Assembly: GCF_014323725.1 (NCBI RefSeq)
Contig: NZ_JABVED010000006.1
Span: 186,001-250,000, forward strand
Length of the DNA: 64,000 nt
Reading direction: 5' to 3'
From: Actinokineospora xionganensis
GTDB taxonomy: Bacteria; Actinomycetota; Actinomycetes; Mycobacteriales; Pseudonocardiaceae
Numbering within the stretch: the first letter of the stretch is position 1; each line of letters begins with the position of its first letter. A program made the translations under genes and the position numbers. The notes below the pieces were generated by a model that was given only the letters and a program-made list of their open reading frames with translations, did no database searches and had not been told where the DNA came from. Shown here piece by piece: positions 2,925 to 60,780 of this stretch.

Positions 2925-5900
2925 ATGGACGTCTTCAAGCTGCACGAGCAGCTCATCGCCGACTATCAGGCGTTCACCTCGGGCTTCACCGAAATTCACG
3001 ACACTCGAATCCGAGATCATGTCAGCCGACGCCAGGACGCAGGCGATCAATGGCCCGATCCGTATCTGTCGCTGAACCCGAACTTCGCTTCGGGCGGAAC
3101 GATCACTGAGCTGGTCGACCACGGCGTTCTACACTCAGAGTGCGAGCGAATCTTCCGCATCGGCAAAGACGAGCCGGGTTCTGCGGGGTATCCGCTCACA
3201 CTGCATCAGCACCAACGAGACGCGATCGACGTCGCCCGCGGCGGACAGAGCTATGTCCTCACCACCGGCACCGGTTCCGGCAAGAGCCTGAGCTACATCG
3301 TTCCGATCGTCGACCACGTGGTCCGTCTCCGCGCGAGCGGCGCCTACCAGCCGGGCGTCAAGGCGATCATCGTGTATCCGATGAACGCCCTCGCCAACAG
3401 CCAGCGCAACGAGCTGGAAAAGTTCCTGGCGCATGGATTTCCGGACGGCCGCGGCCCAGTCACTTTCCGCCGCTACACCGGCCAGGACCGCGACGCCGAA
3501 CGCGCCGAGATCCTCAGCGACCCGCCCGACATCCTGCTGACCAACTACGTGATGCTCGAACTGGTTCTGACGCGCCCAAAGGAGCGAGAACGTCTGATCA
3601 CCGCTGCCCACGGGCTACGTTTCCTGGTTCTTGACGAGTTGCACACCTATCGTGGTCGCGCAGGCGCGGACGTCGGGATGTTGGTGCGCAGGCTCCGCGA
3701 CGCCTGTGCCGCCGACCAACTGCAATGTGTCGGCACCTCGGCGACGATGACCACCGAGGGATCGGACGCGGACCGCCGCCGAGTGGTCGCCGACGTCGCG
3801 ACGCGCCTGTTCGGTGTGCCGGTTTCCAGGGGCGCAGTCATCGGTGAGACCCTGCGCCGGGCGACTACGGGCGACCCAAACGACCGTGCCGCGATCTCCG
3901 CCCGGGTGCCGGGCGGGCCGCGGGCAGCCACCTACGATGACTTCACCGCCGACCCACTCGCGGCGTGGGTCGAGGCGACATTCGGTGTGACCGAGGAATC
4001 CGGGAAGCTTGTCCGCCCCCGGCAACCAACCACGTTGCCCATGGCCGCGGAACGACTCGCCGACCACACCGGTAGAAGCGCCGACGAGTGCCGTCTCGCC
4101 GTCGAGCAGACACTGCAGCTTGGCGCAAGCCTGACCGACCCGCAGACTCGCAGACCAGCCTTCGCCTTCCGTCTGCACCAGTTCCTGTCCAAAGGGGACA
4201 ATGCTTACCTGAGCGTCGAGACACCCGAGACCCGGTACATCACAACGCGATACCAGACTATCGTTCCGGATTCCGCCGCCGAGGGGCGGATTCTTCTGCC
4301 TGCCGCCTTCTGCCGCGAGTGTGGCCAGGAATACCTTGTCGTGCAGCGCACGGAGCAGGGCGGGGTCGCACGCTTCACCTCGCGGAGAGACGCCGACGCG
4401 GCCGGTGGCAGCGCCTCAACCGGCTATCTGTTCATCAGCTCGGACATCCCCTGGCCTGACGGAGTGGATGTCGCTATCAGCGAGCAGCGGCTTCCCGAGT
4501 CCTGGCTCGCAACGTCCGACGACGGATACGTCTCGATCGCGCCGCGCCGGGTTAAGAGCCTTCCTACGGTGATCTACCTCGATCCGACCGGCACACAGGT
4601 GGAACGCGGTGCCGGTGTACGAGCGGCGTTCATCCCCAGTCCGTTCACCTTCTGCCTGCGCTGCCGGGTGTCCTACGAGCAGATCCGCAGCAGTGATTTC
4701 GCCAAACTGGCGTCGCTGGCCGTCGAGGGTCGTAGCTCCGCGACATCGGTCCTCAGCGCGAGCATCGTCCGCAGCCTGCGCGATCAAGCAGAGGTGAGCC
4801 CAGAAGCACGCAAACTCCTGTCCTTCGCCGACAACCGTCAGGACGCGAGCCTGCAAGCCGGTCATTTCAACGACTTCATCCAGGTGACCCAGTTGCGGGG
4901 CGCGCTCTATCAGGCGATCAAGAATGAACCGTCCGGCGTGAGTCACGAGGTAATCGAGCAACGGGTAACCGATGCGCTCGGCCTGACGCTGGTGGACTTC
5001 GCCAAGAACCCAGAGGCTCGGTTCACCGCCGAGAAAAGGGCTTGGGAAGCGCTGCGCAGACTGGTCGGGTTTCGCCTCTACCAGGACCTCGAACGCGGCT
5101 GGCGCATCACGATGCCGAACCTTGAGCAAACCGGTCTGCTCAAAATCGACTACATCGATCTGCCGGAGATCGCAGCCGACGAAGACCTATGGGGCGACCG
5201 GCATTTCGCACTCCGCGACGACGTCGCCGAGCACCGGCTGGAACTCATGCGGATTCTACTCGACGAACTGCGTCGAGTGCTGGCGATCGACGTCGACTGC
5301 TTCACCGATCTGGGCTTTGAGCAACTGCAGAAACTTTCCGACCAGCACCTCAACGAGCCATGGGCACTGGCCGACCGGGAGACTCGGCCACAGACAGGCG
5401 TGGCGTTCGCCCGGACCGGCGGCAAAGGCGGTAAACGCGAACACCTCTATCTCAGCGGATACGGCGCCTATGGTCGCTACCTGTTGCGCCCGAATCAGTT
5501 CTCCCGCACAACTGACGCCCTGACCCGCGATGACGCTCAGAAGATAATCAGCGATCTGCTTCGGATCCTGGAGCGGTGCGGGCTTCTCACCATCGACCGC
5601 TTTCCCGACTCCGACGCCCCCGGCTACCAACTCAAGGCCTCGTCAATCGTGTGGCGTCCCGGCGACGGCAGCTCCGGAGCGGAGGACCGCTTGCGCCGGG
5701 AGGTCGCCGCGGAAACCGGCCCTCGGGTCAACCCGTTCTTCCTGCGGCTGTACTCCGATGTCGCCGCGACACTGTCCGGCCTGCGCGCCAAGGAGCACAC
5801 CGCCCAGGTCAACAGCGACGAGCGGATGAAACGTGAAGACGCCTTCCGCGCCGGTGACCTTCCGGTCCTGTTCTGCTCCCCGACGATGGAACTTGGCATC

Positions 5901-33924: not shown

Positions 33925-34296
33925 ATGGACGCATGCCGCCGATCAGGGATTGCTTTACACAGTCTTGTTCGAGAATTCGAAGGGACGACACTCCGCGTCG
34001 GAGTCATGACGGACCGCCACTGGGTTGCCACATTCAGCCCTAGGGTGAACTGGGGCTATACGGCCAAAAGGGGGAAATGGCGGCGGTCGGTGTACGTGGC
34101 CGAACCGTCGATGCTCTTCTTTCCCGAGCACGCGCCGGCGGGCGCTACGCCGAAAAGAGGAACGCGGATTCGATTCCTCGGACTAATGCGGATGTCTGTC
34201 CTTCGTGGATACTTCACCGGCAACCCCGGCCCCCGTACGGACGTCTGTTTCATTGGCGAAGCGAGGCGGGAATCCTTGTTCGAAAGGGAGTCGTAG
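33925..34296 (+). CDS. Doubtful 123-aa hypothetical protein at the head of the NRPS operon
   Basis: The frame is open and its TAG stop abuts the GTG start of the flavoprotein gene, which would fit a coupled leader gene. Against it: no Shine-Dalgarno ahead of the ATG, third-position GC clearly lower than in neighbouring genes, an in-frame TTA near the start and no recognisable domain. Part of this stretch may be 5' leader RNA instead. Confidence 0.28.
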   Translation: MDACRRSGIALHSLVREFEGTTLRVGVMTDRHWVATFSPRVNWGYTAKRGKWRRSVYVAEPSMLFFPEHAPAGATPKRGTRIRFLGLMRMSVLRGYFTGNPGPRTDVCFIGEARRESLFERES

Positions 34297-43846: not shown

Positions 43847-45180
43847 CCACCACCACCGAGGGGCTAGGTCGCTTCGTCGCGATCTGGGTCGGGCAGTTGG
43901 TGTCGCTGGCGGGCACCGCCGTCACCGGGTTCGTGCTGGGTGTGTGGGTGTACCAGCTCACCGGCTCAGCCACCCAGTTCAGCCTGATCATGCTGGTCGA
44001 AGCCATCGCGGCGATCTCCGTCGCGCCACTGGCGGGCGCGGTCGCGGACCGGGTCGACCGGCGCTGGACACTGGTCGCGAGTGACGTGGTCGCCGCGGCG
44101 GTGACGGCCGTGCTGCTCACGCTCGTCACGGCGGGCGGCCTTCAGGTGTGGCAGGTCTACCCGATCTCCGCGGTCGCGGCGATGTGCGCGACGTTCCGCA
44201 TGGTCACCTTCACCACGATGCTGCCGCTGCTGGTGCCCGAACAGCACCTGAGCCGCGCCAACGGGCTCGCCCAGGCGGGAATGGCGGTGCAGATCTCCGC
44301 TCCGCTCGCCGCGGGGGTGCTGCTGGCCACGGTCGGCCTCCGCGGCGTGGTGCTCATCGACCTGTTCACCTACGGCGTCGCCCTCGCGATCACCGTCTCG
44401 CTCGCCCTGCCCGAGCGGGCCGTGCGACCACAGCCGCGAGAGCACGCCGAGCGCGACGGGGCGATGGCCGAGTTGCGCGGCGGCTGGACCGAGCTGCGGA
44501 GGCGGTCCGGTCTGGGCACGCTGCTCCTTGTCCTGGGCGCGTTCGACTTCGCGTTCGGGCTGGCGGGGGTCCTGGTGCAGCCGCTTATCCTGACCTTCGC
44601 CGGACCGTCCACCCTGGGCGTGCTGATGTTCGCGGGCGGTGGCGGCATGCTGCTCGGCAGCGCGGTGATGAGCGTGTGGGGCGGACCGAAACGCCGGATC
44701 ACCGGTGTCTCGGCGTTCCTGGCGATCGGCGGCGTGGCCCTCGCGCTGCACTCGCTGGCCCCCTCGGCGCTGCTCATCGGCATTCTGGCGCCCGCCTTCC
44801 TGTTCACCCTGCCGGTGATCACCGGCTGCACGATGTCGCTGCTACAGACCAAAGTGGACCCGAGCACGCTGGGCCGGGTCATGGCGAGCGTGCGGATGGT
44901 GTCGCAGGGCGCGACCGCGATCGCCTACGCCGTGGCCGGTCCCCTGGCTGACCAGGTCTTCGAACCGATGCTCGCCCCGGGCGGCGCCTTGGCCGACAGC
45001 GTCGGCGGGGTGATCGGCACCGGGCCCGGGCGCGGCATCGCGCTCATCTTCGTGATCACCGGCGCGGTCCTGCTAGTGCTGGCCGCCGCCATGGCCTCGC
45101 CGCGGCTGCGCGCCGTCGACGGCCTTCCCGATCTGCTGCACACCAAAGGGGAATCCGATGTTGAACTTGCCGCGGGCTGA
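43843..45180 (+). CDS. MFS transporter, probable product exporter
   Basis: A 445-aa major facilitator protein with about 12 hydrophobic segments. The loop 2-3 motif is [11 protein letters not shown], and there is a central hydrophilic loop ([11 protein letters not shown]). It resembles the MFS_3/enterobactin-exporter-like group that exports siderophores and macrolides. Its ATG overlaps the reductase-NRPS stop (ATGA), and its 3' end overlaps the next NRPS gene by 23 nt, so it belongs to the biosynthetic operon. It likely exports the peptide and may give self-resistance. The cargo is inferred. Confidence 0.88.
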
Positions 45181-48100
45181 GCACCGCGCCTTCGCGGAGA
45201 ACGACGCGCCCGGGCCGCACCTCGACGTCCTGCACGCGTTGTCCTACCGGGTGGCGGGAACCGCGCTTCGTCTCGGGATCTTCGAGCACCTGACCGACGA
45301 GCCGCGTGCCGCCGAGGATCTGGCGGCGGCGATCGGCGGCGACCCGCGTGGGACACGGGTGCTGCTCGACGCGCTGGTCGGTTTCGAGTACGCGGTGCGC
45401 GACGACTCCGGCTACCGCGCCGCCCCCGGCGCGAAGTGGCTGGGCACGGGATACCGCACTGTGTTCTCCTTCTGGCACCGCGTCCTGTTCGACCAGTGGC
45501 GCGACCTTGAACGGTCCATTGTGGAGGGCAAGCCCGCGGTCGACTTCTACGGCTGGCTCGACGCCGATCCCGAGGCTCTCGGCGAGTTCCAGTCGATGCT
45601 GGGTGAACTGGCCGACGCCGTCATCCCCGGCCTCCCCCTGTCGCTGCCCACCGCCCGTCGCCTGCTCGACGTCGGCGGCGGCCACGCGCGCTACGCCACC
45701 GCGTTCTGCCAGGCCAACCCCGACCTGTGGGCGACCGTGCTGGACCTGCCCGGCACGCTGGACGCCGGCCGCGCCCACGCCGCCGCGCTGGGCGGCCGAG
45801 TCGAGTTCCGCGAGGGTGACTGGCTGACCGACGACCTCGGCGCGGACCATGACGTCGTGCTGCTGTTCAACGTCCTGCACTGCCTGGCCCCCGACCGCGC
45901 CCGCGACCTGATCCGCCGCGTCGGCGAAGCGGCTGCCGCGGGTGCGACCGTGCTGATCCTTGAGGAGACGCCGGAGATCTCCCCGGAGGCGGGCGGCACC
46001 GGGGCGGCCTGGGTGCCGATGTTCAGCCTCAACCTGTTCCACACCCAGGGTGGCCAGATCCACACCGAAGCCCAGCTCACCGAGTGGCTGACCGAGGCCG
46101 GGTTCGGCGACGTCTCGGTCGCACCCGTCCCGGCGGCGCCGACGTTCCGGCTGTACTCGGCCACCAGGGGCGCACGACGGTGGCAGCCGACGGCCGCGCA
46201 GCGACAGATGCTCGCGTTCCACGAGCTCTTCCCGAGTTCCACCTGGCACAACGTCCCGCTCTACGCGCGGATCACCGGCCCTCTCGACACCCACGCGCTG
46301 CGCGAGTCGCTGCGGCGCTGCGTCTCCCGCCACGATTCGCTGCGCACCAGGTACGCGCCGGACGGCACCGCGGAGGTCACCGAGGTCGCCCCGGTCCTGA
46401 CCGAAGTGGACCTCACCGGGCAGGGTGAGGCGGCGGTCGCGGCGCTGCGCGACCGAGAACTGCGCACCCCGTTCGACCTCGCCCAGGGCCCGCCGATGCG
46501 CGCGACCCTGGCCCGGCTCTCCGCCGAGGAACACGAGCTGATCCTGGTCACCCACCACATCGCCATCGACGGCTACTCACTTCCGCTGCTGCAGCGCGAC
46601 CTCCTGGCCGGCTACGGCGACCCCGGCAGCGAGACCGATGGACCGCGGTATTCGGAGTTCGCCCTGCGGCACAACGACTCCGCGATCGACGACGAGCAAC
46701 TCTCCTTCTGGCTCAGCGAACTGGCGAACCCGCCGGACCGGATGGTGCTGCCGTTCGCGGCGAGCACCGCCGACCCGGGCCTGGCCGCGGACCTGGTGGC
46801 CTTCGCCGTGCCAGACGAGGTGTCGACCGCCGTCCGGGAGCTGGCCAGGCAGCAGCGGTCCAGCCCGTTCATGGTGCTGCTGAGCGCTTTCGGAGTCCTG
46901 CTGAGCCGCTACAGCGGGGCGACGGACCTGGTGATCGGCACGCCCGTCGCCGGACGCGACCACGCCGGAACCGAGGACCTGGTCGGCTGCCTGGTGAACA
47001 TGGTTCCGCTACGGATGCGGCTGGCCGACGCGGCCACATGGTCGGACGTGCTGACCGTGGTCCGGTCGGCCGCGTTGGACGCCTTCGACCATGTCGACGT
47101 GCCGTTCGCCCATGTGGTCGACCAACTCGCCCCCGTGCGGTCGGCGAACATCCACCCGGTTTTCCAGGTCGCCTTCGCCGCGCCGCCCGCACTGGCCGCA
47201 CCATCCACAGTGGATGGTGTGCGGTTCGCGTTCGCCGACGGAACAAGCACCGAGTCGCTCTTCGACATCGAGGTCCAGGTCATCGACGAGGGCGACGCGA
47301 TGCGCGGCTACCTCAAGTACCGCGGCGCACTGTTCTCGCGTGCGCACATGACCGGCCTCGTCGACCACTTCCTGCACCTGGCAGGCCAACTCGCCGAGGC
47401 GCCCGAGGCGGCGCTCGCCGACGTGTCGCTGCTGCGGCCCGAGCAGTGGCGCCGGGCGGTCGTCGAGTGGAACGACACCCACACGGACTACCCGCGCGAG
47501 GCCGGCCTGGTCGCGCTGGTGGAAGCACAGGTCGACGCCACGCCGGACGCCGTCGCCGCGGTCTACGGCGACGAGACACTCACGTACCGCGAACTGGACG
47601 AGCGCGCCAACCGGTTGGCACATCACCTGCGGGACAAGGGGATCAGTGCGGAGAGCAAGGTCGGCCTCTGCCTGGAGTTCCGGGCGGACTGGGTGGTCGC
47701 CGCGCTCGCCGTGCTGAAGGCGGGTGGTGCCTACGTGCCGCTCGACCCCGCCTACCCGGCGTCGCGGCTGGACCTCATGTGCGCGGACAGCGGGGTCGAG
47801 GTCGTGCTGGCGCACGAGAGTCTGCGCGACCGGGTCACCGGCCCGGTGATCATCCTCGACGGCGGCCTGACCGGGCCGACCACGCGCCTGGACATCGCGG
47901 TGGGCGCCGACAACCTGGCGTACGTCATGTACACGTCCGGCTCGACCGGCAGGCCGAAGGGTGTCGCCGTCACCCACCGCAACATCGTTCGGCTCGTCCG
48001 TGACACCGACTATGTCCACTTCGGACCTGATGACGCCGTTGCGCAGGCGTCGAACCTGTCGTTCGACGCGGCCACCTTCGAACTGTGGGGCCCGCTGTGC

Positions 48101-49231
48101 GCGGGCGCGCGAATCGTCGGCGTGCCGAAGGACGACCTGCTCTCGGCCCCGGCGCTGGGCAAGGCGCTGCGGGACAACGGGATCACCATCATGTTCCTGA
48201 CCACGACGTTGGCCAGGCAACTCGCGGCCGAGGCCCCGGAGACGTTCGCGTCGCTGCGTCTGCTGCTCGTCGGCGGCGAGCAGGCCGACACCACCATGAT
48301 CCACCGGCTGGTCGGGATCGACGGGCCGCGGGTGCGCAACATCTACGGGCCGACGGAGACGACCACGTTCGCCCTGTCCTGGCCCGCACTCATCGAGAAC
48401 GCCGCGGACGCCGACGTGGTGCCCATCGGCAGGCCGATCGCGAACAGCACCGCCTACGTCCTCGACGACCACCTGCGGCCGGTCGCGCCCGGTCTGGTCG
48501 GCGAGATCTTCCTCGGCGGCGACGGCGTGGCCCGCGGCTACGTCGGCCGGGCCGACCTCACCGCCGAGCGCTTCGTGCCCGACCCGTTCGGCGCCGCGGG
48601 GTCGCGGCTCTACCGCACCGGCGACCTGGGCCGATACCGGGCAGACGGCCTGATCGAGTGCCTCGGGCGAATCGACCGGCAGGTGAAGATCCGGGGCTTC
48701 CGGATCGAGCCGGGCGAGGTCGAGGACTGCGTGCGCGAGACCGGGCGGGCCAAGCACGTCACCGTCCAAGTGCGACAGACCGACGACGGGGACGCCATGC
48801 TGGTGGGCTATGTCGTGCCCGCCGACCCGGCCGCGTCGATGGCCGACCTGCGCGAGGAACTGCGGCGGCGGCTGCCCGAGTACCTCGTCCCCACCACCCT
48901 GATCGCGATGGAAGCCCTGCCGGTCAACGCGAACGGCAAACTCGACATCGCCGCTCTGCCTGACCCACTGGCCCAGGCGACCGCGGCACACGCGGAACCG
49001 ACCAGTGAGACCGAGCGGGTCGTGCGCGCCATCTGGCGTGAGGTGCTGGGCAACCCGGACATCGGCGTGCACGACGACTTCTTCGTCCTCGGCGGCCACT
49101 CCATCAAGGCGGGCCAGGTCGTGACCCGCCTCCGCGCCGAACTCAGGGTCCCCGTGTCCCTTCGGCTGCTGTTCGACAACCCGACGGTGGCGTCTCTGGC
49201 CGCCGCCCTTCCGCACCCCGTCTCACACTGA
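45158..49231 (+). CDS. NRPS with N-terminal O-methyltransferase: MT-C-A-T (Ile/Val-like adenylation code)
   Basis: A 1357-aa fusion. Residues ~1-335 are a complete small-molecule O-methyltransferase of the COMT/acetylserotonin type: helical dimerisation region ([24 protein letters not shown]), SAM motif L170DVGGG175, and [12 protein letters not shown] with the His expected of the catalytic helix. Residues ~340-765 are a condensation domain with H466HIAIDG472. The adenylation domain has A3 TSGSTG at 926, [10 protein letters not shown] and NANGKLD. The thiolation domain has VLGGHS1315IKA. The eye-read code D-A-F-F-L-G-I-T-F-K is near the Ile code D-A-F-F-Y-G-I-T-F-K. The methyltransferase is at the extreme N-terminus, not inserted in the A domain, so it is not an ordinary N-methylation domain. 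ATG 45158 has AAAGGGGA upstream and lies inside the MFS gene. Confidence 0.92.
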
Positions 49232-52846: not shown

Positions 52847-52882
52847 GCCGAATTCCGGGTATAGGCGCGCGGTCTATTCGGC
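52847..52882. terminator. Inverted repeat between convergent lysR and GGDEF genes
   Basis: GCCGAAT (52847-52853) and ATTCGGC (52876-52882) are perfect complements separated by 22 nt. The element overlaps the last codons of the minus-strand GGDEF gene. It is a plausible bidirectional terminator but has only a 7-bp stem. Confidence 0.35.
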
Positions 52883-54175
52883 GTGGTGCGGGATTGACGA
52901 TTCGGCTGAGCGGACCTGGTTGCGGCCGCCGTGCTTGGCCTCGTAGACCGCCGCGTCCGCGGAGCGCAGGAGCTCGTCGAGATCGGCGGTCGCGCCGGGG
53001 CCCGACGCGATGCCGATCGACGCCGTGCGGTTCGAGATGAGCACCGGCTGGCCGCGCTTGTCGGTGGCCGCGACGTGCATCTCGGCCACCCCCTGGCGCA
53101 CGCGCTCGGCCACCCGCACGGCCTGTTCGGCGTCGGTGTCGGGCAGCATCAGGACGAATTCCTCGCCGCCGAAGCGACCCACGACGTCGCCTTGGCGGGT
53201 CGTCTCCCGCAGGACCGCGCCGACCGCGCGGAGCACGGCGTCGCCCGCCGGGTGTCCCCACGTGTCGTTGACCTGCTTGAAATGGTCCAGGTCGATCACC
53301 GCGACGGACAGCGTCGAGTGCTGACGGCGGGCGCGGGCGAACTCGCGGCCGGTCTGCTCGTGCCAGCCGCGGCTGTTGAGCAGCTGGGTCTTGTGGTCGG
53401 TGCGGGCGTCGCCCTTGAGGTTCTCGATCTGCAGCGCGCCCCAGTCGAGGACGGCCAGCAGCGGCACCACGAACAGCGGCGCCAGCCAGGCGTGGGCGAC
53501 CGCGAGCGCCGCCATCGAGCCCAGGCACACCGTCATCGCGGCCATCGCGTTGTCCCGGCCGGAGCCGATGACCGTCAGCCAGGTCGGCTGCGGGGTCGAC
53601 AGGGCGATGACCCCGCCGATAGCGATAGCGTTCACGACGAAGAAGACAAGGCCCGCACCCGCCAGCACCAAAACCTCGCGAGCGCCGAACGCGCTGGCCA
53701 CGTCGATGCCCGAATAGCGGACGATGGCCAGCTCGATAAGTGCGGCGAACATGGCGGCCATGGTGCCGAAGGTGTATCGGTATAGCGGTCGACGCGCGAC
53801 CGGATAGAGCTGCGCCCGGAGCAACACCAAGGAGATGATCGCCATCCACGCGGGCAGCAGCACCATCGCGGGCAGGACCCAGACAGTGGTGGTGTCCATG
53901 TGGGGACCGGTGCCGCTGTCGCGGCGCGTCTCCTCGGTTCGGCGGGAGATCCACAGGTGCAGCGAGGTCGCTCCGACCAGTGCCCCGAGCACCCGCCAGT
54001 CCATCGAGGTCGCGGGCGCGTCGGTGAGGATCAGGGCGACGGCGGCGAGAACGGTCAGCGCTTCGATGGCGAGGATGTACCGCAGAACGGGTCGCGGAAG
54101 CGTCCAAAGGCCCCAGCGTCGCGGTGAAAGCAACGAGCGGAGCGAAGGGTGTTCACTGCGCAGCGATTCAGTCAC
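52874..54175 (-). CDS. Membrane diguanylate cyclase (GGDEF domain)
   Basis: A 433-aa protein from GTG 54175 (VTESLRSEHPSLRS). About seven hydrophobic segments (ILAIEALTVLAAVALIL to HAWLAPLFVVPLLAVL) are followed by a C-terminal GGDEF domain. The active site is G336GEEF340 and the inhibitory RxxD I-site (RQGD) is five residues before it. DLDHFKQVNDTWGH is the metal-binding helix. It should make cyclic di-GMP and be feedback-inhibited. The frame stays open upstream to 54937, but that extension has codon use unlike the gene and covers the 60-nt repeat array, so I exclude it. The start is uncertain because no good Shine-Dalgarno is visible. Confidence 0.85.
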   Translation of the reverse strand: MTESLRSEHPSLRSLLSPRRWGLWTLPRPVLRYILAIEALTVLAAVALILTDAPATSMDWRVLGALVGATSLHLWISRRTEETRRDSGTGPHMDTTTVWVLPAMVLLPAWMAIISLVLLRAQLYPVARRPLYRYTFGTMAAMFAALIELAIVRYSGIDVASAFGAREVLVLAGAGLVFFVVNAIAIGGVIALSTPQPTWLTVIGSGRDNAMAAMTVCLGSMAALAVAHAWLAPLFVVPLLAVLDWGALQIENLKGDARTDHKTQLLNSRGWHEQTGREFARARRQHSTLSVAVIDLDHFKQVNDTWGHPAGDAVLRAVGAVLRETTRQGDVVGRFGGEEFVLMLPDTDAEQAVRVAERVRQGVAEMHVAATDKRGQPVLISNRTASIGIASGPGATADLDELLRSADAAVYEAKHGGRNQVRSAESSIPHHAE

Positions 54176-54330
54176 ACTTAGCCGTGGACGGAGCAATCCC
54201 AGGATCCGGCCGCGATGAACCGTACCGTTCGGCCCGGCCTGCCCGCCTTGTGGGTGATCGCCGTCGCGAGGAGGTGGAGTCGGTGCGTGATCGTTGCCGT
54301 TCAGGCTCGTTAGACCGGGCGAATCCTCGG

Positions 54331-54720
54331 AAGGAGTCCCCGATGATCCGCGATTGGTGATCTTCGAGTCCCCCGCCTCTTCGAGAACAGGAGCTTCCGA
54401 TGTGCATCCGCGACTGGTAATCCCCGAATGCGTCCCGGCCTCAGCGACGACAGGAGCCTCGAATGATCCGCGACTGGTGAACCCGGAATCCATCCCCACC
54501 TCAGCGACAACAGGAGTCTCGAATGATCCGCGACTGGTGATCTCCGAATCCGACCCCACCCCAGCAACTACAGGAGCCCCACTTGATCCGCGACTGGTAA
54601 CCCCGGAAACCGTCCCCGCCCCGCCAACCACAGGAGCCCCAGATGATCCGCGACTGGTAACCCCGGAAACCGTCCCCGCCCCAGCAACCACAGGAGCCCC
54701 AGATGATCCGCGACTGGTGA
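54331..54720 (+). repeat. Seven tandem 60-nt units, each with a Shine-Dalgarno box and a MIRDW mini-ORF
   Basis: Units end at 54360, 54420, 54480, 54540, 54600, 54660 and 54720, exactly 60 nt apart. Each has AGGAG (54332-54336, 54389-54393, 54452-54456, 54512-54516, 54572-54576, 54632-54636, 54692-54696). A start codon follows 6 nt later (54343, 54400, 54463, 54523, 54583, 54643, 54703), then ATC CGC GAC TGG and a stop. Unit 1 has GAT for GAC (synonymous). Unit 2 has an inserted codon (MCIRDW) balanced by a shorter leader. Unit 5 starts with TTG, a valid start. Stops alternate between TGA and TAA. The linkers differ much more than the mini-ORFs. This indicates selection on translation of the pentapeptide or on the initiation-termination signals. 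The array lies in the divergent space between the GGDEF gene and the MFS gene and points towards the latter. Confidence 0.85.
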
Positions 54721-55470
54721 CCCGTGACCGTGCCGCGTCAGTGTTCGCCGACGAGACCCGCACCTCCACGGCAGCGGGAGGCGTCTTCCGCCTGTTCCCG
54801 TGTTCAGTGGATTCCAACGGTGCGACCTCCCCTTCTGCTCGCTGTTCATCCTCCGGTTTCCGCAGGACTTCGGCCTTACCGAGAAGCGTATGCCTTCCGA
54901 CCGACACAGTGTTCTGTTCGGCCGACCCATCGCCCATAACATCGTCTACCTGCGGTTCGGCGTATCACCCGTCCCCGATCGCGGGACGCCACTCGCGGAC
55001 TCCACGGTACGGCTAACGCCGACAGTAGTGAGTCCGCTACAGCAAGCAGCGCCCGAATGGAGCAAACGCGCAAGCCGAGCGTGGACGACCTCTCACCACA
55101 TAAGACGCTGTTTCGCCTCGTACGTGACGCCGCGCAACGTTGTTGATCACTCTTTCGTACTATCGCGCCCCACTTGCCCGCTGTGACGCAGTTCACCCAG
55201 CTTTCGGCCCGGCTATCCAGTGCGTGGGCCATTCAGCGGGGGCACGGTTGGAAACTGACGGACAACGCTGCGCCGGACGGACGCATCCTCCGATTCCGGG
55301 CCTTGGACTCTACCAATGACGCCCGGGACGACCCGTCGGTGCCGGTACTCTGAGCGACGCAGCGGTGACCGAATGACAAGATCACGCCATACCCGCCCGC
55401 GCCACACACCTGGTGCTGGAGGAGTGCCATCGGCCCGTCTGGGTAAACCCCGGGCGGACAGGGAGAAAAC
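54721..55470. other. Non-coding region between the mini-ORF array and the MFS gene
   Basis: About 750 nt of lower GC than the genes around it. Several open frames cross it, but none has a ribosome-binding site or coding-type codon use. It could be the continuation of the transcript carrying the mini-ORF array, plus the promoter of the MFS gene. I see no further copies of the 60-nt unit in it. On the other side of the array, 54176-54330 likewise holds no supported gene. Confidence 0.45.
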
Positions 55471-56742
55471 ATGAGCCGACAGGGACCGAGTATGTTCGCG
55501 CCCCTCGCGAACCTGGAGTTCCGCGCGCTCTGGCTGACCGAAGCCCTCTCCGTCGCCGGGGACCAGCTCACCCGCGTGGCGCTCGCGATCCTCGTCTACG
55601 ACCGCACCGGCAACGCGATGTACGCGGCGGGCATCTACGCCCTGACGTTTCTTCCCGCGCTCGCGGGCGGCCTCGGTCTCTCCCACCTCGCCGACCGCTA
55701 CCGCAGGCGCACCCTCATGGTGTGGTGCTCGGCGGGCCAGGCGCTGCTGGTCGGTCTGATGGCGATCCCGAACATGCCGTTGATCGCACTGTTCGTGCTG
55801 GTCATCGGGGTCCCGCTCTTACAGTCCCCCGCGGTGGCGGCGCAGAACGCCACTACGCGGGAGATCCTGCCCGACGACGACCTCTACCTCCGCAGCCAGG
55901 ACCTGCGCGGCATCACCACGAACACCACGATGCTGGTCGGTCTCGGCGGCGGCGGTCTGCTGGTCGGGTGGCTCGGCACGTCCACGGCACTGGCCATCGA
56001 CGCCGCCACCTTCGTCGTCGCGACGCTGCTCGTCCACCGCTACGTCGAGGACCGTCCGCCCGCCAGCACCGAGAAGACCAGTTGGCTCGACGGCGCGCGT
56101 TGGGTCTTCGGCGACCGCAAGGTGCGCATCCTGGTGACACTGTCCTGGCTGGTCGGGCTGGCCGTGATCCCGGAGGGACTCGCGGCTCCGCTGGCCAAGG
56201 AGATCGGTGCGCCGTCGGGGGCGGTGGGCCTGCTGCTGGCGGCCGACCCGCTCGGGTTCATCGTCGGCACCTTCGCGATCTCCCACTTCGTTCCGGCCGC
56301 GCTCCGCGCCCGCCTCATCGGTGTGCTCGCGACCTCGGCGCTGGGTGTGCTGACCCTGTTCATCCTGAAGCCGACCCTGGTGCTCGCGCTGGTGCTGCTG
56401 TTCGTCGCCGGTTTCGTCGGCGCGTACCAGGTGACGGTCATGGGCATCTTCAACACGCTCGTGCCCAACGAGATCCGCGGCGGCGCGTTCGGCGCGGCGC
56501 GCACCGGGCTGCGGGTCGCGCAGGCTCTGGGCATCGCCGCGGGCGGCGCCCTGGCGCAGGGAATCGGCTCGTCCGCCACGACGATCGCGATCGGCGGAGC
56601 CTTGGGCGTGCTGATCGCGGTCCCCGCGACGGTCGCCTGGTCCCACGCGCGCCGCGAGGGCGAAGACACGGCCGCGGCTTCTGCTTCGGCACAGGAAGCT
56701 CCCGCCGCGAAGCGTGAGTCCGCGGCGAAGCAGGCGAGCTAG
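55471..56742 (+). CDS. MFS transporter
   Basis: A 423-aa major facilitator protein; ATG 55471 has AGGGAG at 55460-55465. About 11-12 transmembrane segments are visible, with the loop 2-3 motif LSHLADRYRRRT and a charged C-terminal tail rich in Ala/Glu/Lys. It belongs to the same broad group as the NRPS-operon exporter but is not a close copy. The substrate is unknown. Codon 117 is TTA (55819). Upstream lies the mini-ORF array, in the same orientation. Confidence 0.88.
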   Translation: MSRQGPSMFAPLANLEFRALWLTEALSVAGDQLTRVALAILVYDRTGNAMYAAGIYALTFLPALAGGLGLSHLADRYRRRTLMVWCSAGQALLVGLMAIPNMPLIALFVLVIGVPLLQSPAVAAQNATTREILPDDDLYLRSQDLRGITTNTTMLVGLGGGGLLVGWLGTSTALAIDAATFVVATLLVHRYVEDRPPASTEKTSWLDGARWVFGDRKVRILVTLSWLVGLAVIPEGLAAPLAKEIGAPSGAVGLLLAADPLGFIVGTFAISHFVPAALRARLIGVLATSALGVLTLFILKPTLVLALVLLFVAGFVGAYQVTVMGIFNTLVPNEIRGGAFGAARTGLRVAQALGIAAGGALAQGIGSSATTIAIGGALGVLIAVPATVAWSHARREGEDTAAASASAQEAPAAKRESAAKQAS

Positions 56743-56921: not shown

Positions 56922-59900
56922 CTAACGAGCCCAGGCGGACAGCAGCGCGCGAACGTGCGCGGCGTCCGGCACCGCCAACTCCTCGAACACAGTCAACGCC
57001 TTCTGCCAATCCGATCGCGCACCGTCCATATCGGCCTCACCCTGCCGCACCAGTGCCCGCACATGCAGCGCCCGCGCGTGCGCCAGCCGCTGGCCCGCCC
57101 TGGCAGTCACGGTGATCGCGCGGTCGGCGTACTCGAGGGCGGCGGCGGTGTCGCTCGCGTCCAGATAGGACTGCGCGACCTCGGTCAGCGCGCGGGCCTC
57201 GAGCAGGCGCATGCCGGTCTCGTCGATCATGGCCAGCGCCCGCAGGCCGTGATCGATCGCGCCCGCCCGGTCGCCCGTGCGCCTGCACAGGGCGCCCATG
57301 CCGGTGAGCACCGACGCCTCGCCGTAGCTGTAGCGGATCTCCTCGGCGAGTCCGCGGGCTTCGGCGTAGTTGTCGGCGGCGGCGGACCATTCGCCGGTGC
57401 GGAGTTGGATGGTCGCGAGGATGTCGAGCCCGCTGACCTCGTGCCTGCGCACCCCGAGTTGCCGCGCCTGGTCGATGGCCTGGCGGACGAGGACGGCCGC
57501 CTCGGTCAGGGTGCCGCGGTCGCAGCCGGTCTCGGCCAGGCACACCAGCATCGCGACCTCGCCATGCCGGTAGCCGTAGCGCCTGCACACCGCCAGCGCG
57601 TCCTGATAGCACTGCTCGGCCTTGCCCAGATCGCCCACCGCCCAGTGGGTGAGTCCCAGTCCCTGCGCCGCCGCGGCCTGGACCTGTCGGTGGCCGATGC
57701 GGGTGCTCAGCTCCAGCGCCTCGGCGTGCCGGTCGAGCGCGGTGCGCGGCCTGCCCAGCAGCAGCGCGGCGATGCCCAGGTAGTTCAGCGCCGCCGCTTC
57801 CCCACGCCGGTTCCCGATGGCCCGGTAGATGTGCAGCGACTCCTCGCAGAACGCCGACGCCTGGGCGGGCTGTCCGATCTGCGAGTACGCGCGCCCGAGG
57901 TTGTGCAGGGCGGCGGCCTCCACGACGCGGTTCCCGGTGCCGCGGCTGAGTTCCTGCGCCCAGCGCAGGTGCTCGATGGCGTTGTCGTAGTCGCTGAGGT
58001 TGCCGTAGATCTGCCCGAGCAACTCGTGCACGGACGCCTCGGCGTCGACATCACCGGCGTTGCGGGCGGCGGTCAGCGCCGCCGTGCACACCGCGATGCC
58101 GTCGTCGCCGTGGCCGCGGTTGGAGAAGTAGCTGCGCAGCGCTTCGGCGAAGCGCCACGCGTAGCTGTGCAGCCCGAGGCCGCCCGCTGCGAGGGTGGCG
58201 TCCACCAGGTTCGCGCGTTCGGCGTCGAGCCAGCTGATCGCCGCCTGCTCACCGCCGCCGGACTCCGCGGGCTCGACCTGCCAGAGCACGGCGCTGTGCG
58301 CGCGCACAGCTTTGAGGTAGTGATCAAAGAGCCGGACTACGGCGTCGTGACGGTCGTCGTCTTCGTCGTCGAAGCCCGCGCGGTCGGCCGCGTACTCGCG
58401 CAGCAGGTCGTGGAAGGTGTAGCGGCCGGGTGTGTGCTCGCGGATGAGATTGCCGTGGTCGAGCACGCGCAGCAGCCGCGCGGCCTCCTCGGTCGTGGCG
58501 CTCACCAGGGCCGCCGCGCCAGGCGCGTCGATGTCGGTGCCGGGCACCAGGCCGAGCAGCCGGAACAGGCGCCGGGCCGCGGGGGTGAGCTTGGTGTAGG
58601 AGAGGTCGAACGCGACGCGGACCGCGGCGGACTCGTCCCCCGCGACGGCCAGGCCTGCCATCCGGCCCCGGTCACGCAGTTCCCGGGTGTAGTCCGCGAC
58701 CGTGGTCAGCGGCCGGATGGCGAGGTTCGCGCCCGCGATCCGCAGCGCCAGCGGCAGGTGCGCGCAGGTGTCGGCCATCTCGGCGGCGGCGGTGGCCTCA
58801 CGGCGGGTGCGGGCGACACCGACCAGCCTGCCGAGCAGGTCGACCGACTCCTCCGGCGCCAACACGTCCAGTGGGAGCTGGTGCGCGCCGTCGCGGGCGG
58901 TCAGGCCGGTGAGCCGGTCGCGGCTGGTCACCAGCACCAGACACCCCGGCGATCCCGGCAGCAGCGGGCGCACCTGCTCGGCGGTGGCCGCGTTGTCCAG
59001 CAGGATCAGCACCTTCTTGCCGGTCAGCATCGTGCGGTAGAGGCCCGCCGCTTCCTCGATGTCGGCGGGCACCCGTTCGGGCGCGACGCCGAGCGCGCGC
59101 ACGAAGCGCACCAGCACCTCGTACACGGTCGGCGGGTGGCCGGCGGCGTAGCCCTGCAGGTTGACGCTGAGTTGACCGTCCGGGAACCGGGGCCGGACCC
59201 GGTGCGCCCACCGCACGGCGAGCGCGGTCTTGCCGACCCCCGCGCTGCCCGAGACCGCGATGACCACCGAGTGGCCGTCGAGGTCGGCGAGGTGCGAGTC
59301 GAGGCGGGCCATGGCGTCGGCGCGGCCCACGAAGCCGGGGGTCTCGGCGGGGAGTTGCGCGGGCGCGCGCTGCGGCGCTGGTTCCGGCTTGCCGCGCAAC
59401 ACCCGCAGGTGCGCCTGACGGATCTCGGCGCCGGGCTCGATGCCGAGTTCCTCGTCGAGCCGGGCCCGGATGTCGGCGAACACACCCAGCGCGGCCGCCT
59501 GTTCGCCGGTGCCCGCGAGGCCGAGGATCAGCCGGGCGTGCAGGCCTTCGTGCAGCGGTTCGTCGTGGACCAGGCCGCGGGTGTTGAGCACGACCTCGTC
59601 GAAGCGGCCGAGCTCGATCGCGAGGTCGGCGTGGGCGAGGACGGCGTCGCGCCTGCGCACGTTCAGCGCGATCACCGCCGGGTGCTCGCGCAACGCGGGG
59701 AGGTCCGAGAGCGCGGGCCCGCGCCAGGAGGCGAGGGCGCGGTCGTAGAGGTCGGCTGCCCGGTCCGGTTCGCTGAGCCGGGCCGACTGCGCCTTGGCGA
59801 CGAGGTCGTCGAACCGGGCCATGTCGAGCTGGTCGGTCCGCAGGTCGAGCCGGTAGCCGCCGGGGGTGGACGCGATCACGTCGGCGTTGCGCCTGCTCGC

Positions 59901-60377
59901 GGCGGTCAGCGCGCGCCGCAGCCGGGATATGTAGGTGTGCACCAGCCCGAGGCAGCTCTCCGGCGGGTCCTCGCCCCAGAGCACGTCCACGATCTCGTCG
60001 TGTCGGACCGTGGTGCCGACCCGCAGCGCGAGCAGGGCCAGCAGGGTCCGCTGCTTGAGCGCGCCGACCCCGATCGCCCGGTCGCCGTGGTCGACCGACA
60101 GCGGCCCGAGGATGCCGACGCGCACGCGCGGGGCGGGGGTCTGCTGCACGGCGGCGGCAGCGGCGAGGAAGGTGGCGTCGTCGGCGGGCACCCCGACCGC
60201 GGCGGCGAGCCTACGCACCGTGTCGAGCCGGGGCCGATCGACGCCGCCACGCTCGATGTAGCGCAGCGCGCGAACGCTCAGGCCGGAGCGCTCCGCGAGC
60301 TCCTGCTGGGTGAGCCGGGCCCGCAGCCGATGCGACCGGAGGACTTCGCCGAACGGGATCGGCGACTCCTCGGTCAT
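56922..60377 (-). CDS. AfsR/SARP-type regulator: XRE HTH, winged helix, BTAD, NB-ARC ATPase, TPR
   Basis: A 1151-aa multidomain regulator from ATG 60377 (MTEESPIPFGEVL), with an AGAGAGGG sequence about 10 nt upstream. Domain order: XRE-type HTH (~8-65, RARLTQQELAERSGLSVRALRYIERG), OmpR-like winged helix (~75-150), BTAD (~165-310), NB-ARC with P-loop G377SAGVGKT384 and VLILLDNAA Walker B, then tetratricopeptide repeats to the C-terminus (~740-1140). Such proteins activate secondary-metabolite or differentiation genes after ATP binding. The extra N-terminal XRE domain distinguishes it from classical AfsR. It lies 7.5 kb from the NRPS operon, so a regulatory link is possible but unproven. The gene diverges from the phospholipase fusion gene. 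Confidence 0.9.
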   Translation of the reverse strand: MTEESPIPFGEVLRSHRLRARLTQQELAERSGLSVRALRYIERGGVDRPRLDTVRRLAAAVGVPADDATFLAAAAAVQQTPAPRVRVGILGPLSVDHGDRAIGVGALKQRTLLALLALRVGTTVRHDEIVDVLWGEDPPESCLGLVHTYISRLRRALTAASRRNADVIASTPGGYRLDLRTDQLDMARFDDLVAKAQSARLSEPDRAADLYDRALASWRGPALSDLPALREHPAVIALNVRRRDAVLAHADLAIELGRFDEVVLNTRGLVHDEPLHEGLHARLILGLAGTGEQAAALGVFADIRARLDEELGIEPGAEIRQAHLRVLRGKPEPAPQRAPAQLPAETPGFVGRADAMARLDSHLADLDGHSVVIAVSGSAGVGKTALAVRWAHRVRPRFPDGQLSVNLQGYAAGHPPTVYEVLVRFVRALGVAPERVPADIEEAAGLYRTMLTGKKVLILLDNAATAEQVRPLLPGSPGCLVLVTSRDRLTGLTARDGAHQLPLDVLAPEESVDLLGRLVGVARTRREATAAAEMADTCAHLPLALRIAGANLAIRPLTTVADYTRELRDRGRMAGLAVAGDESAAVRVAFDLSYTKLTPAARRLFRLLGLVPGTDIDAPGAAALVSATTEEAARLLRVLDHGNLIREHTPGRYTFHDLLREYAADRAGFDDEDDDRHDAVVRLFDHYLKAVRAHSAVLWQVEPAESGGGEQAAISWLDAERANLVDATLAAGGLGLHSYAWRFAEALRSYFSNRGHGDDGIAVCTAALTAARNAGDVDAEASVHELLGQIYGNLSDYDNAIEHLRWAQELSRGTGNRVVEAAALHNLGRAYSQIGQPAQASAFCEESLHIYRAIGNRRGEAAALNYLGIAALLLGRPRTALDRHAEALELSTRIGHRQVQAAAAQGLGLTHWAVGDLGKAEQCYQDALAVCRRYGYRHGEVAMLVCLAETGCDRGTLTEAAVLVRQAIDQARQLGVRRHEVSGLDILATIQLRTGEWSAAADNYAEARGLAEEIRYSYGEASVLTGMGALCRRTGDRAGAIDHGLRALAMIDETGMRLLEARALTEVAQSYLDASDTAAALEYADRAITVTARAGQRLAHARALHVRALVRQGEADMDGARSDWQKALTVFEELAVPDAAHVRALLSAWAR

Positions 60378-60552
60378 TTCGACGGTGCCCTCTCTTGCCG
60401 CGTTCAATTTGCCGGTCAGCTCATCGTAGTCCAACCGGGTGAGCGATTCACGCAGGTAGCGGGCTTCATCAGGCAGCCCGGCCCGCTGTCCAGGCAGTAC
60501 AGACCGGCTGCCAGGACAGGTCCGTACCGTGTCATCCGGGGGAAGGGGGGAA

Positions 60553-60585
60553 GTGGCATGGCGCCCTGGGGGTGCGCCGTGCCAC
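60553..60585. promoter_or_regulatory. 12-bp hairpin in the divergent afsR-like/phospholipase intergenic region
   Basis: Arms 60553-60564 and 60574-60585 pair over 12 bp with one G-U pair and a 9-nt loop. It lies 176 nt upstream of the AfsR-like start. The whole gap, 60378-60845 (468 nt), holds no gene I can support. The hairpin may be a leader structure or operator. Confidence 0.4.
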
Positions 60586-60744
60586 CCACCCCACCACACC
60601 TCCCGCGCCGACGGCGCCGACATCACAGCCCGGTAACCTGCCCGGGTGGGGGTTGCCAGCCGTTCGAGGTTCTGTGTCCGGGCGTGTGGCGCGGTGAAGA
60701 CCAAACCGCGCCCGGCCGAGCGGACATCTCACTCCGACCACTGC

Positions 60745-60780
60745 GGAATCAGCGGAATCAGCGGAATCAGCGGAATCAGC
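60745..60780. repeat. Four perfect tandem copies of GGAATCAGC
   Basis: A 9-nt microsatellite repeated four times without error, 66-101 nt upstream of the phospholipase-fusion start. A length-variable tract here could alter promoter spacing. Its 9-nt unit would also keep frame if it were translated. Confidence 0.85.

Follow-up and report, generated by a model that had tools for sequence, protein, structure and literature searches.

Tandem arrays of very short, probably translated reading frames beside a diguanylate cyclase gene in Pseudonocardiaceae

Introduction

A row of seven minute open reading frames (mini-ORFs), each preceded by its own Shine-Dalgarno (SD) sequence, lies within the 64,000-nucleotide stretch of Actinokineospora DNA analyzed here, which we call the window. 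Are such mini-ORFs genes and, if so, is it their peptide or the act of translating them that matters? The original prediction, made from the window, recognized the row and considered among other roles a multi-copy pentapeptide gene and a leader for the downstream MFS gene. We compared the locus with those of relatives in the genus and in the family Pseudonocardiaceae. A search of the open-licence literature in PMC gave nothing on such arrays.

Results

Seven units in the window

The pattern ATCCGCGAYTGGTRA matched the plus strand of the window seven times at 54346-54720, in exact 60-nt steps. It matched nowhere else in the 64 kb, and 100 shuffles gave no match. All seven units had AGGAG and an in-frame start upstream of Arg-Asp-Trp-stop (Table 1), and the predicted row of seven, with its 60-nt period and an SD, start and stop in each unit, was borne out at 54332-54720 of the plus strand. 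The peptides are MIRDW in six units, one of them read from TTG, and MCIRDW in one, with TGA or TAA as stops. A more general rule (SD, start, three to eight codons and R-[D/E]-x-stop at the end) found the seven units plus one other mini-ORF (MFERES, at 34276) on the plus strand of the window and none on the minus strand. By exact search the SD-bearing unit was present at a single locus of its own genome; allowing up to three mismatches gave five more matches elsewhere, all with three mismatches. The exact unit was found in 1 of 297 family genomes, its own.

Table 1. Positions in the window of the mini-ORF array and of the two genes that accompany it.
Feature	Positions	Strand	Remarks
GGDEF (diguanylate cyclase) gene, longest ORF	52874..54937	-	Pfam GGDEF E 1.5e-43; conserved core 52874-54190
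Unit 1	54332..54360	+	AGGAG 54332-54336; ORF 54343-54360 MIRDW-stop, Asp = GAT, TGA
Unit 2	54389..54420	+	AGGAG; ORF 54400-54420 MCIRDW-stop, one codon extra, TAA
Unit 3	54452..54480	+	AGGAG; ORF 54463-54480 MIRDW-stop, TGA
Unit 4	54512..54540	+	AGGAG; ORF 54523-54540 MIRDW-stop, TGA
Unit 5	54572..54600	+	AGGAG; ORF 54583-54600 MIRDW-stop, TTG start, TAA
Unit 6	54632..54660	+	AGGAG; ORF 54643-54660 MIRDW-stop, TAA
Unit 7	54692..54720	+	AGGAG; ORF 54703-54720 MIRDW-stop, TGA
MFS transporter gene (MFS_1/MFS_3, EntS-like)	55471..56742	+	third member of the recurring trio

The mini-ORFs are maintained throughout Actinokineospora

Close homologues of the overlapping minus-strand GGDEF gene were present in all 16 Actinokineospora genomes searched and, with this gene as the query, the DNA upstream of the homologues yielded further arrays having other residues before RDW. 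Fifteen of the 16 loci contained 162 RDW units, from 1 to 23 per locus. An in-frame, SD-spaced start was present in 159 of these, all 159 with a stop, and was missing in three; the sixteenth locus (L049) contained only a diverged MRSRDR-stop. The peptides of the 159 were MSRDW (77), MRSRDW (63), MIRDW (6), MTVRDW (4), MSVRDW (3) and others (6). Their starts were ATG (144), GTG (12, or 14 if every start in the spacing range is counted) and TTG (3), and their stops TGA (145), TAA (10) and TAG (4). Only R-D-W was constant among the relatives, so that of the I-R-D-W constancy originally read from the window this part held and the residue before it did not, the preceding residues being variable.

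The variation is of the kind expected if translation matters. In the R and D codons the search pattern left only the third base free, and this base varied between C and T. The AGGAG-start distance (six bases in 116 units) was kept when an ORF was one codon longer, and starts at SD distance fell 159 times in the frame of RDW-stop versus 5 and 1 times in the other two frames. When the array zones of the 16 loci were scanned without requiring RDW, 159 SD mini-ORFs ended in RDW and 13 otherwise, and the opposite strand gave one. Five of the 13 look like diverged units (MRSRAW, MRSRDQ, MRPGDR, MSRDR and MRSRDR), most at an array edge. A relaxed search through the minus-strand motif gave 177 unit-like segments, of which 162 conformed and 15 did not; about half of the 15 were the outermost N-terminal copy, where no SD mini-ORF was found. 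The proposal that the units vary as translation would tolerate (GAT for GAC, TTG, TAA and an extra codon with the SD moved along) agrees with what the relatives show: start, stop and SD are kept and the linkers vary. To judge from these patterns, the mini-ORFs are almost certainly translated.

Translation of so many short ORFs might itself be the purpose, in line with the ribosome sink of the original prediction, with peptidyl-tRNA drop-off from the many copies trapping ribosomes or tRNAs and lowering translation under some condition. Short ORFs with a strong SD are capable of this according to the excerpted account of minigenes (PMC8708949), and the copies are numerous. The same excerpt gives TGA as less toxic than UAA, however, and TGA is the stop in 145 of 159 units; trapping also leaves the conserved R-D and the tie to GGDEF and MFS genes unaccounted for. 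We consider it very unlikely.

Two apparently coding strands over one array

The longest form of the GGDEF ORF runs through the array in the window, where its minus frame would encode the N-terminal part of the protein. Hydropathy gives the protein six hydrophobic 19-residue segments before the GGDEF domain, and at E 1e-30 no second GGDEF gene was found in the same genome. In the 12 loci having at least five units the minus frame continuous with GGDEF had no stop in 3352 array codons, where mononucleotide shuffles of the linkers alone give an expectation of 38.8, and in Actinokineospora 147 of 147 unit spacings were multiples of three. Both strands seem to code over the array in this genus. 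Given the open minus frame and the spacings in threes, the GGDEF protein therefore very probably includes, or included until a short time ago, [VILF]-T-[S/N]-[R/H]-G repeats. The linkers, previously described as diverging freely, do vary, but the frame through them stays open and their lengths go in threes.

The open frame and the spacing in threes raise the alternative that the mini-ORFs are accidents, by-products either of repeats in the minus-strand protein (TSRG..AP, at the GGDEF N terminus) or of a repeated DNA-binding site. The codons argue otherwise. At the unit the minus strand has Thr ACC in 162 of 162 cases, Ser AGT in 143 or Asn AAT in 19, and Arg CGC in 135 or His CAC in 27. These codons are frozen against local usage: in the GGDEF core AGT accounts for 4 of 220 Ser codons, and AGC or TCN is never used at the unit. 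The changes that do occur, AGT/AAT and CGC/CAC, alter minus-strand residues and are silent on the plus strand (GAC/GAT and CGC/CGT). A DNA-binding site would need no start, frame or stop. With the evidence from other genera given below, we hold an accidental origin to be extremely unlikely. In our reading it is probably the plus-strand mini-ORFs that constrain the unit, and the minus frame that constrains length.

Arrays in other genera of the family

A search of 200 family genomes from 46 genera gave GGDEF homologues with E values of 1e-70 or lower in 114 genomes, from 27 genera. From the 114 we chose 40 loci in 23 genera, some with weaker homologues that may be paralogues, and took 1.6 kb around the GGDEF 5' end. 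SD-bearing R-[D/E]-x-stop mini-ORFs were present on the strand opposite to GGDEF in 34 of the 40 loci, 83 units in all. On GGDEF's own strand the 40 loci had none, and mononucleotide shuffles expect 0.1 per 40 loci. In fifteen loci taken at 9 kb all 44 units lay within the array zone and none outside. It is these strand, shuffle and off-array controls that carry the weight because the detection rules were drawn up after the first arrays had been seen. Homologous arrays do exist elsewhere, in the genus and in the family, and multi-copy penta- or hexapeptide ORFs, as first proposed, are seen across the genus and in the 34 sampled family loci.

The commonest family peptides were MSDRDF (17), MSSRDF (11) and MTDRDF (7); the remaining ones have W, L, M, Y or A as their last residue. 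The Arg codons were CGT (48), CGC (34) and CGA (1), and five Ser codons were in use at residue -5. Spacings outside Actinokineospora were distributed 12/17/20 over the three classes modulo 3, and thus not in threes, which speaks against a by-product of minus-strand protein repeats. The arrays of two Amycolatopsis species contradict it as well and also speak against a repeated DNA site: these have five MSSRDW units each at spacings of 76, 69, 75 and 72 versus 77, 67, 73 and 70, with indels in the linkers and the SD and ORFs kept, and lie outside the GGDEF ORF. The two species are also near-identical over much of the interval from GGDEF to array (L091, 3480-3700, and its equivalent in L097), which possibly contains divergent promoters. 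At L165 (G003; oriented 3314-3518) four MSDRAW-stop units have spacings of 66, 66 and 72 nt and the GGDEF ORF enters the array, a possible second case of two-strand coding.

The R-[D/E]-x unit was absent from 6 of the 40 loci. Two of these contain looser relatives of the unit (four MSDRAW in L146 and MRDKIW in L157), and nothing unit-like lay upstream of GGDEF in L156, L159 and L160. Of 36 loci scanned, 10 have the block GGTAYCATYYCA at 72-135 nt upstream of the first start codon and an eleventh has a looser version; the TATCAT within the block could be a -10 box for the array.

A pattern scan of contigs returned 19 stretches, 11 of which were inspected; 14 belonged to Actinokineospora (9), Crossiella (2), Amycolatopsis (2) and Herbihabitans (1). 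The other five (Bacteroidales, Prevotella, Betaproteobacteria, Desulfohalobiaceae and Acidimicrobiia) were taken as chance, no ORF with a GGDEF motif being flagged there. The pattern search of the family matched in 16 of 150 genomes; single matches in G097, G080, G102, G019 and G128, inspected in part, were treated as chance. The GGDEF subfamily was not found outside the family: at E 1e-55 only 1 of 346 phylum genomes matched, the window's own. That genome was also the sole match among the 346 for the REY-type paralogue described below (1e-38); remoter relatives could escape both searches.

One last residue per array

In all 23 multi-unit family loci the last residue was uniform within the locus. 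Across loci it was F, W, L, M, Y or A. Information was 0.01-1.35 bits in the 24 bases downstream of the stop, compared with 2.0 in codon positions 1 and 2 of R and D, which the pattern fixes; because these downstream bases carry so little, the uniformity is not wholly a matter of recent duplication. At L039 units have been copied recently as a block, and there such copies weaken uniformity as evidence. A uniform last residue fits a peptide that would have a specific partner. Taken together, the comparisons among loci establish, at the level of sequence, that selection acts on the translation of the mini-ORFs and on R-[D/E]-last residue, and that the copies of an array share a single last residue.

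A recurring trio with GGDEF and MFS genes

The SDR, MFS and GGDEF genes next to the arrays were named from Pfam matches for one representative each. Among 19 loci from other genera (the fifteen 9-kb loci, two of Amycolatopsis, and those of Herbihabitans and Crossiella) a homologue of the MFS gene of the window stood on the GGDEF strand at the far side of the array in 16. In 14 of these 16 the last unit and the end of the MFS gene were no more than about 120 nt apart; the distance was about 260 nt in G111 and more than 1 kb in G088. The 9 kb examined contained no MFS gene in the remaining three (G033, G030 and G006). In Actinokineospora a minus-strand SDR gene followed the array in 14 of 16 loci, and MFS was then on the plus strand in 10 of the 14; no MFS gene was found within about 4 kb in 4 of the 16. 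The window and L037 are without the SDR gene.

That absence is why the array seems to lead into the MFS gene in these two loci, and a leader of the MFS gene was indeed one of the original proposals. The MFS gene lies 750 nt further on the same strand in the window and similarly in L037, but the synteny goes against a leader, given the minus-strand SDR gene that adjoins the array in 14 of 16 genus loci and the minus-strand MFS gene in 16 of 19 elsewhere. This role is highly improbable. A convergent SDR or MFS gene follows the array in 30 of 35 loci, the exceptions being the window, L037, G033, G030 (convergent SDR, no MFS) and G006 (none of the queried genes); G033 has a plus-strand SDR gene about 280 nt past its single unit. 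No same-strand ORF lies close after the array in most of the 35, and the conserved same-strand downstream gene that would mark a leader or attenuator was not found.

The trio also exists in a second version. Of 14 GGDEF paralogue loci fetched in the genus, seven had two MRNREY-stop units upstream and seven (L023-L028 and L031) had no such pair. In five of the seven REY loci an MFS paralogue, 41-43% identical to the MFS protein of the window, occupied the matching place; in the other two none was found in the 1.5 kb examined. Since MFS paralogue, REY units and GGDEF paralogue stand together, the trio was probably duplicated as a whole and the peptide changed afterwards, the paralogues also differing in last residue (RDW versus REY). 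Such synteny establishes that the trio of MFS gene, array and GGDEF gene recurs, paralogous set included. A single SD-bearing MSQGDRDM-stop mini-ORF was seen about 300 nt upstream of the GGDEF paralogue in L026.

Other neighbors were recorded. In 14 of the 19 loci GGDEF was followed by a gene for a phospholipase A2 domain, identified as Pfam PF09056 in L162. In the window an AfsR/SARP-like regulator gene (56922-60704, minus strand; HTH, BTAD, NB-ARC and TPR) is situated beside the cassette, as in several Actinokineospora; TPR proteins are able to bind short peptides. At 60743-60780, shortly before a phospholipase-type gene, is a perfect 9-bp tandem repeat of 4.2 copies, GCGGAATCA, and at 45158-49231 of the plus strand is a long NRPS-like ORF in which a methyltransferase-like start and condensation- and adenylation-like parts were discerned by eye.

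The array RNA

The RNA of the window array is 38% C and less structured than 100 of 100 shuffles (z +4.15, compared with +1.85 for the minus strand and +1.94 for the plus strand of an Amycolatopsis array). In the loci of ten relatives, a set apart from the window, Rfam 15 gave no match at gathering score and two sub-threshold matches that lay outside the arrays. Weak structure fits easy access of ribosomes and equally fits an RNA that acts in cis. In the latter case translation itself would matter, with ribosomes every 60-75 nt shielding the RNA from Rho or nucleases, or stalling at R-D-x-stop under some condition, and the RNA or its transcription would control the divergent GGDEF gene through antisense or promoter interference. 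Consistent with this, the RNA is C-rich, side and strand of the array with respect to GGDEF do not change among the loci with units, and in Actinokineospora the RNA would be antisense to the GGDEF-continuous frame; known minigenes also work in cis in the excerpt of PMC8708949. Several observations point the other way. In most of the 35 loci a convergent gene stands before the next same-strand gene or there is no such gene. R and D/E are conserved as amino acids, and the last residue may be any of F, W, L, M, Y and A, a range that a single tRNA or stop sensor would not need. We consider a cis-acting RNA rather unlikely.

Discussion

The explanation that we tentatively favor takes the array for a stand-alone gene in multiple copies that encodes a very short peptide; this peptide would act with the diguanylate cyclase and would perhaps be exported by the MFS protein. 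Each copy would be an independent gene of 18-21 bp with its own ribosome-binding site, all on one poorly structured RNA, and copy number would set the dose of a peptide of the form M-(x)-x-Arg-Asp/Glu-(Trp/Phe/Tyr/Leu/Met/Ala). The array, the divergent membrane-anchored GGDEF gene and the MFS gene would form a cassette. In this scheme the function would lie in the peptide that is released, which the MFS protein would export and which, as such or after processing, would act on the membrane portion of the GGDEF protein and so set c-di-GMP. The last residue, which is specific to lineage and paralogue, would set specificity. Counted against this explanation are the single-unit loci, the six family loci lacking an R-[D/E]-x unit, the diverged and startless units of the genus, the loci in which no MFS gene was seen, and that no maturation enzyme was found. 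The array stands at a fixed place beside GGDEF, so that the comparisons do not tell a trans-acting peptide from a cis effect of translating the mini-ORFs, and for this reason we put the full statement at a little below an even chance. A bolder form, in which a bare penta- or hexapeptide made without a precursor is exported by MFS and sensed by GGDEF, with RDW and REY cassettes as separate channels kept specific by the last residue, is possible although on the unlikely side.

Our comparisons suggest an undescribed short-peptide system whose genes would be among the smallest known. Genes of the 18-bp class would then stand in conserved tandem rows through much of a bacterial family, tied to second-messenger signaling and, in Actinokineospora, in what looks like two-strand coding over the same repeats. 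Ordinary gene callers are expected to miss such mini-ORFs. Most membrane diguanylate cyclases have no known stimulus; should the peptide prove to be the ligand here, it would provide a directly testable one.

Several known systems bear comparison. Mycobacterial MIRUs are tandem intergenic repeats with small ORFs that are dispersed over the genome. The likeness to MIRUs raised by the original prediction fails on this point, the unit being at one locus in its own genome, and the array is not a dispersed repeat. Tandem type I toxin loci (Ldr/Rdl, Ibs/Sib) likewise combine tandem repeats, a small ORF in each and antisense overlap, but their peptides are hydrophobic and, at roughly 18-35 residues, longer.

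Regulatory minigenes, of which lambda bar is one, are closer in size. Those of axe-txe, LEE4 and ycbK are, in the excerpt of PMC8708949, SD-bearing ORFs of two to six codons. The array units fall in this range, apart from a few of 7-8 codons. The minigenes of that excerpt are few and lie upstream of the same-strand ORF that they regulate (PMC8708949), whereas the units here form a multi-copy row with a conserved peptide end that usually faces a convergent gene.

Biarylitide precursors, whose 18-bp genes are given as the smallest known in the partial text of PMC13417212, encode five residues with an aromatic last residue and are mainly actinobacterial. The 18-bp unit has the same size, and its last residue is aromatic in most loci, so that the arrays might be precursors of ribosomally made, modified peptides (RiPPs). 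However, the biarylitide finder in that text wants aromatic residues at positions 3 and 5 of peptides of 5-8 residues (PMC13417212), and position 3 is Arg in MIRDW and not aromatic in MSRDW, MRSRDW or MSDRDF. Ala, Leu or Met can also be the last residue. The arrays stand in tandem, up to 23 units per locus, with GGDEF and MFS genes as partners and no P450 gene nearby: the only PF00067 match on the contig is at C56:169094-169666, about 71 kb from the array at C56:240332. A RiPP precursor array is improbable on these grounds.

The favored peptide gene can also be compared with the RRNPP systems of Gram-positive bacteria (Phr, PapR and the arbitrium peptide AimP), in which signals of 5-8 residues are cut from longer exported precursors and bound by cytosolic TPR receptors. 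Mature size, specificity given by a few residues and a linked partner gene would be shared. The arrays differ in that the counted ORFs, of 5-8 residues, leave no room for a longer precursor with a secretion signal, so the peptide would be made without a precursor, and in that its partner would be a membrane diguanylate cyclase.
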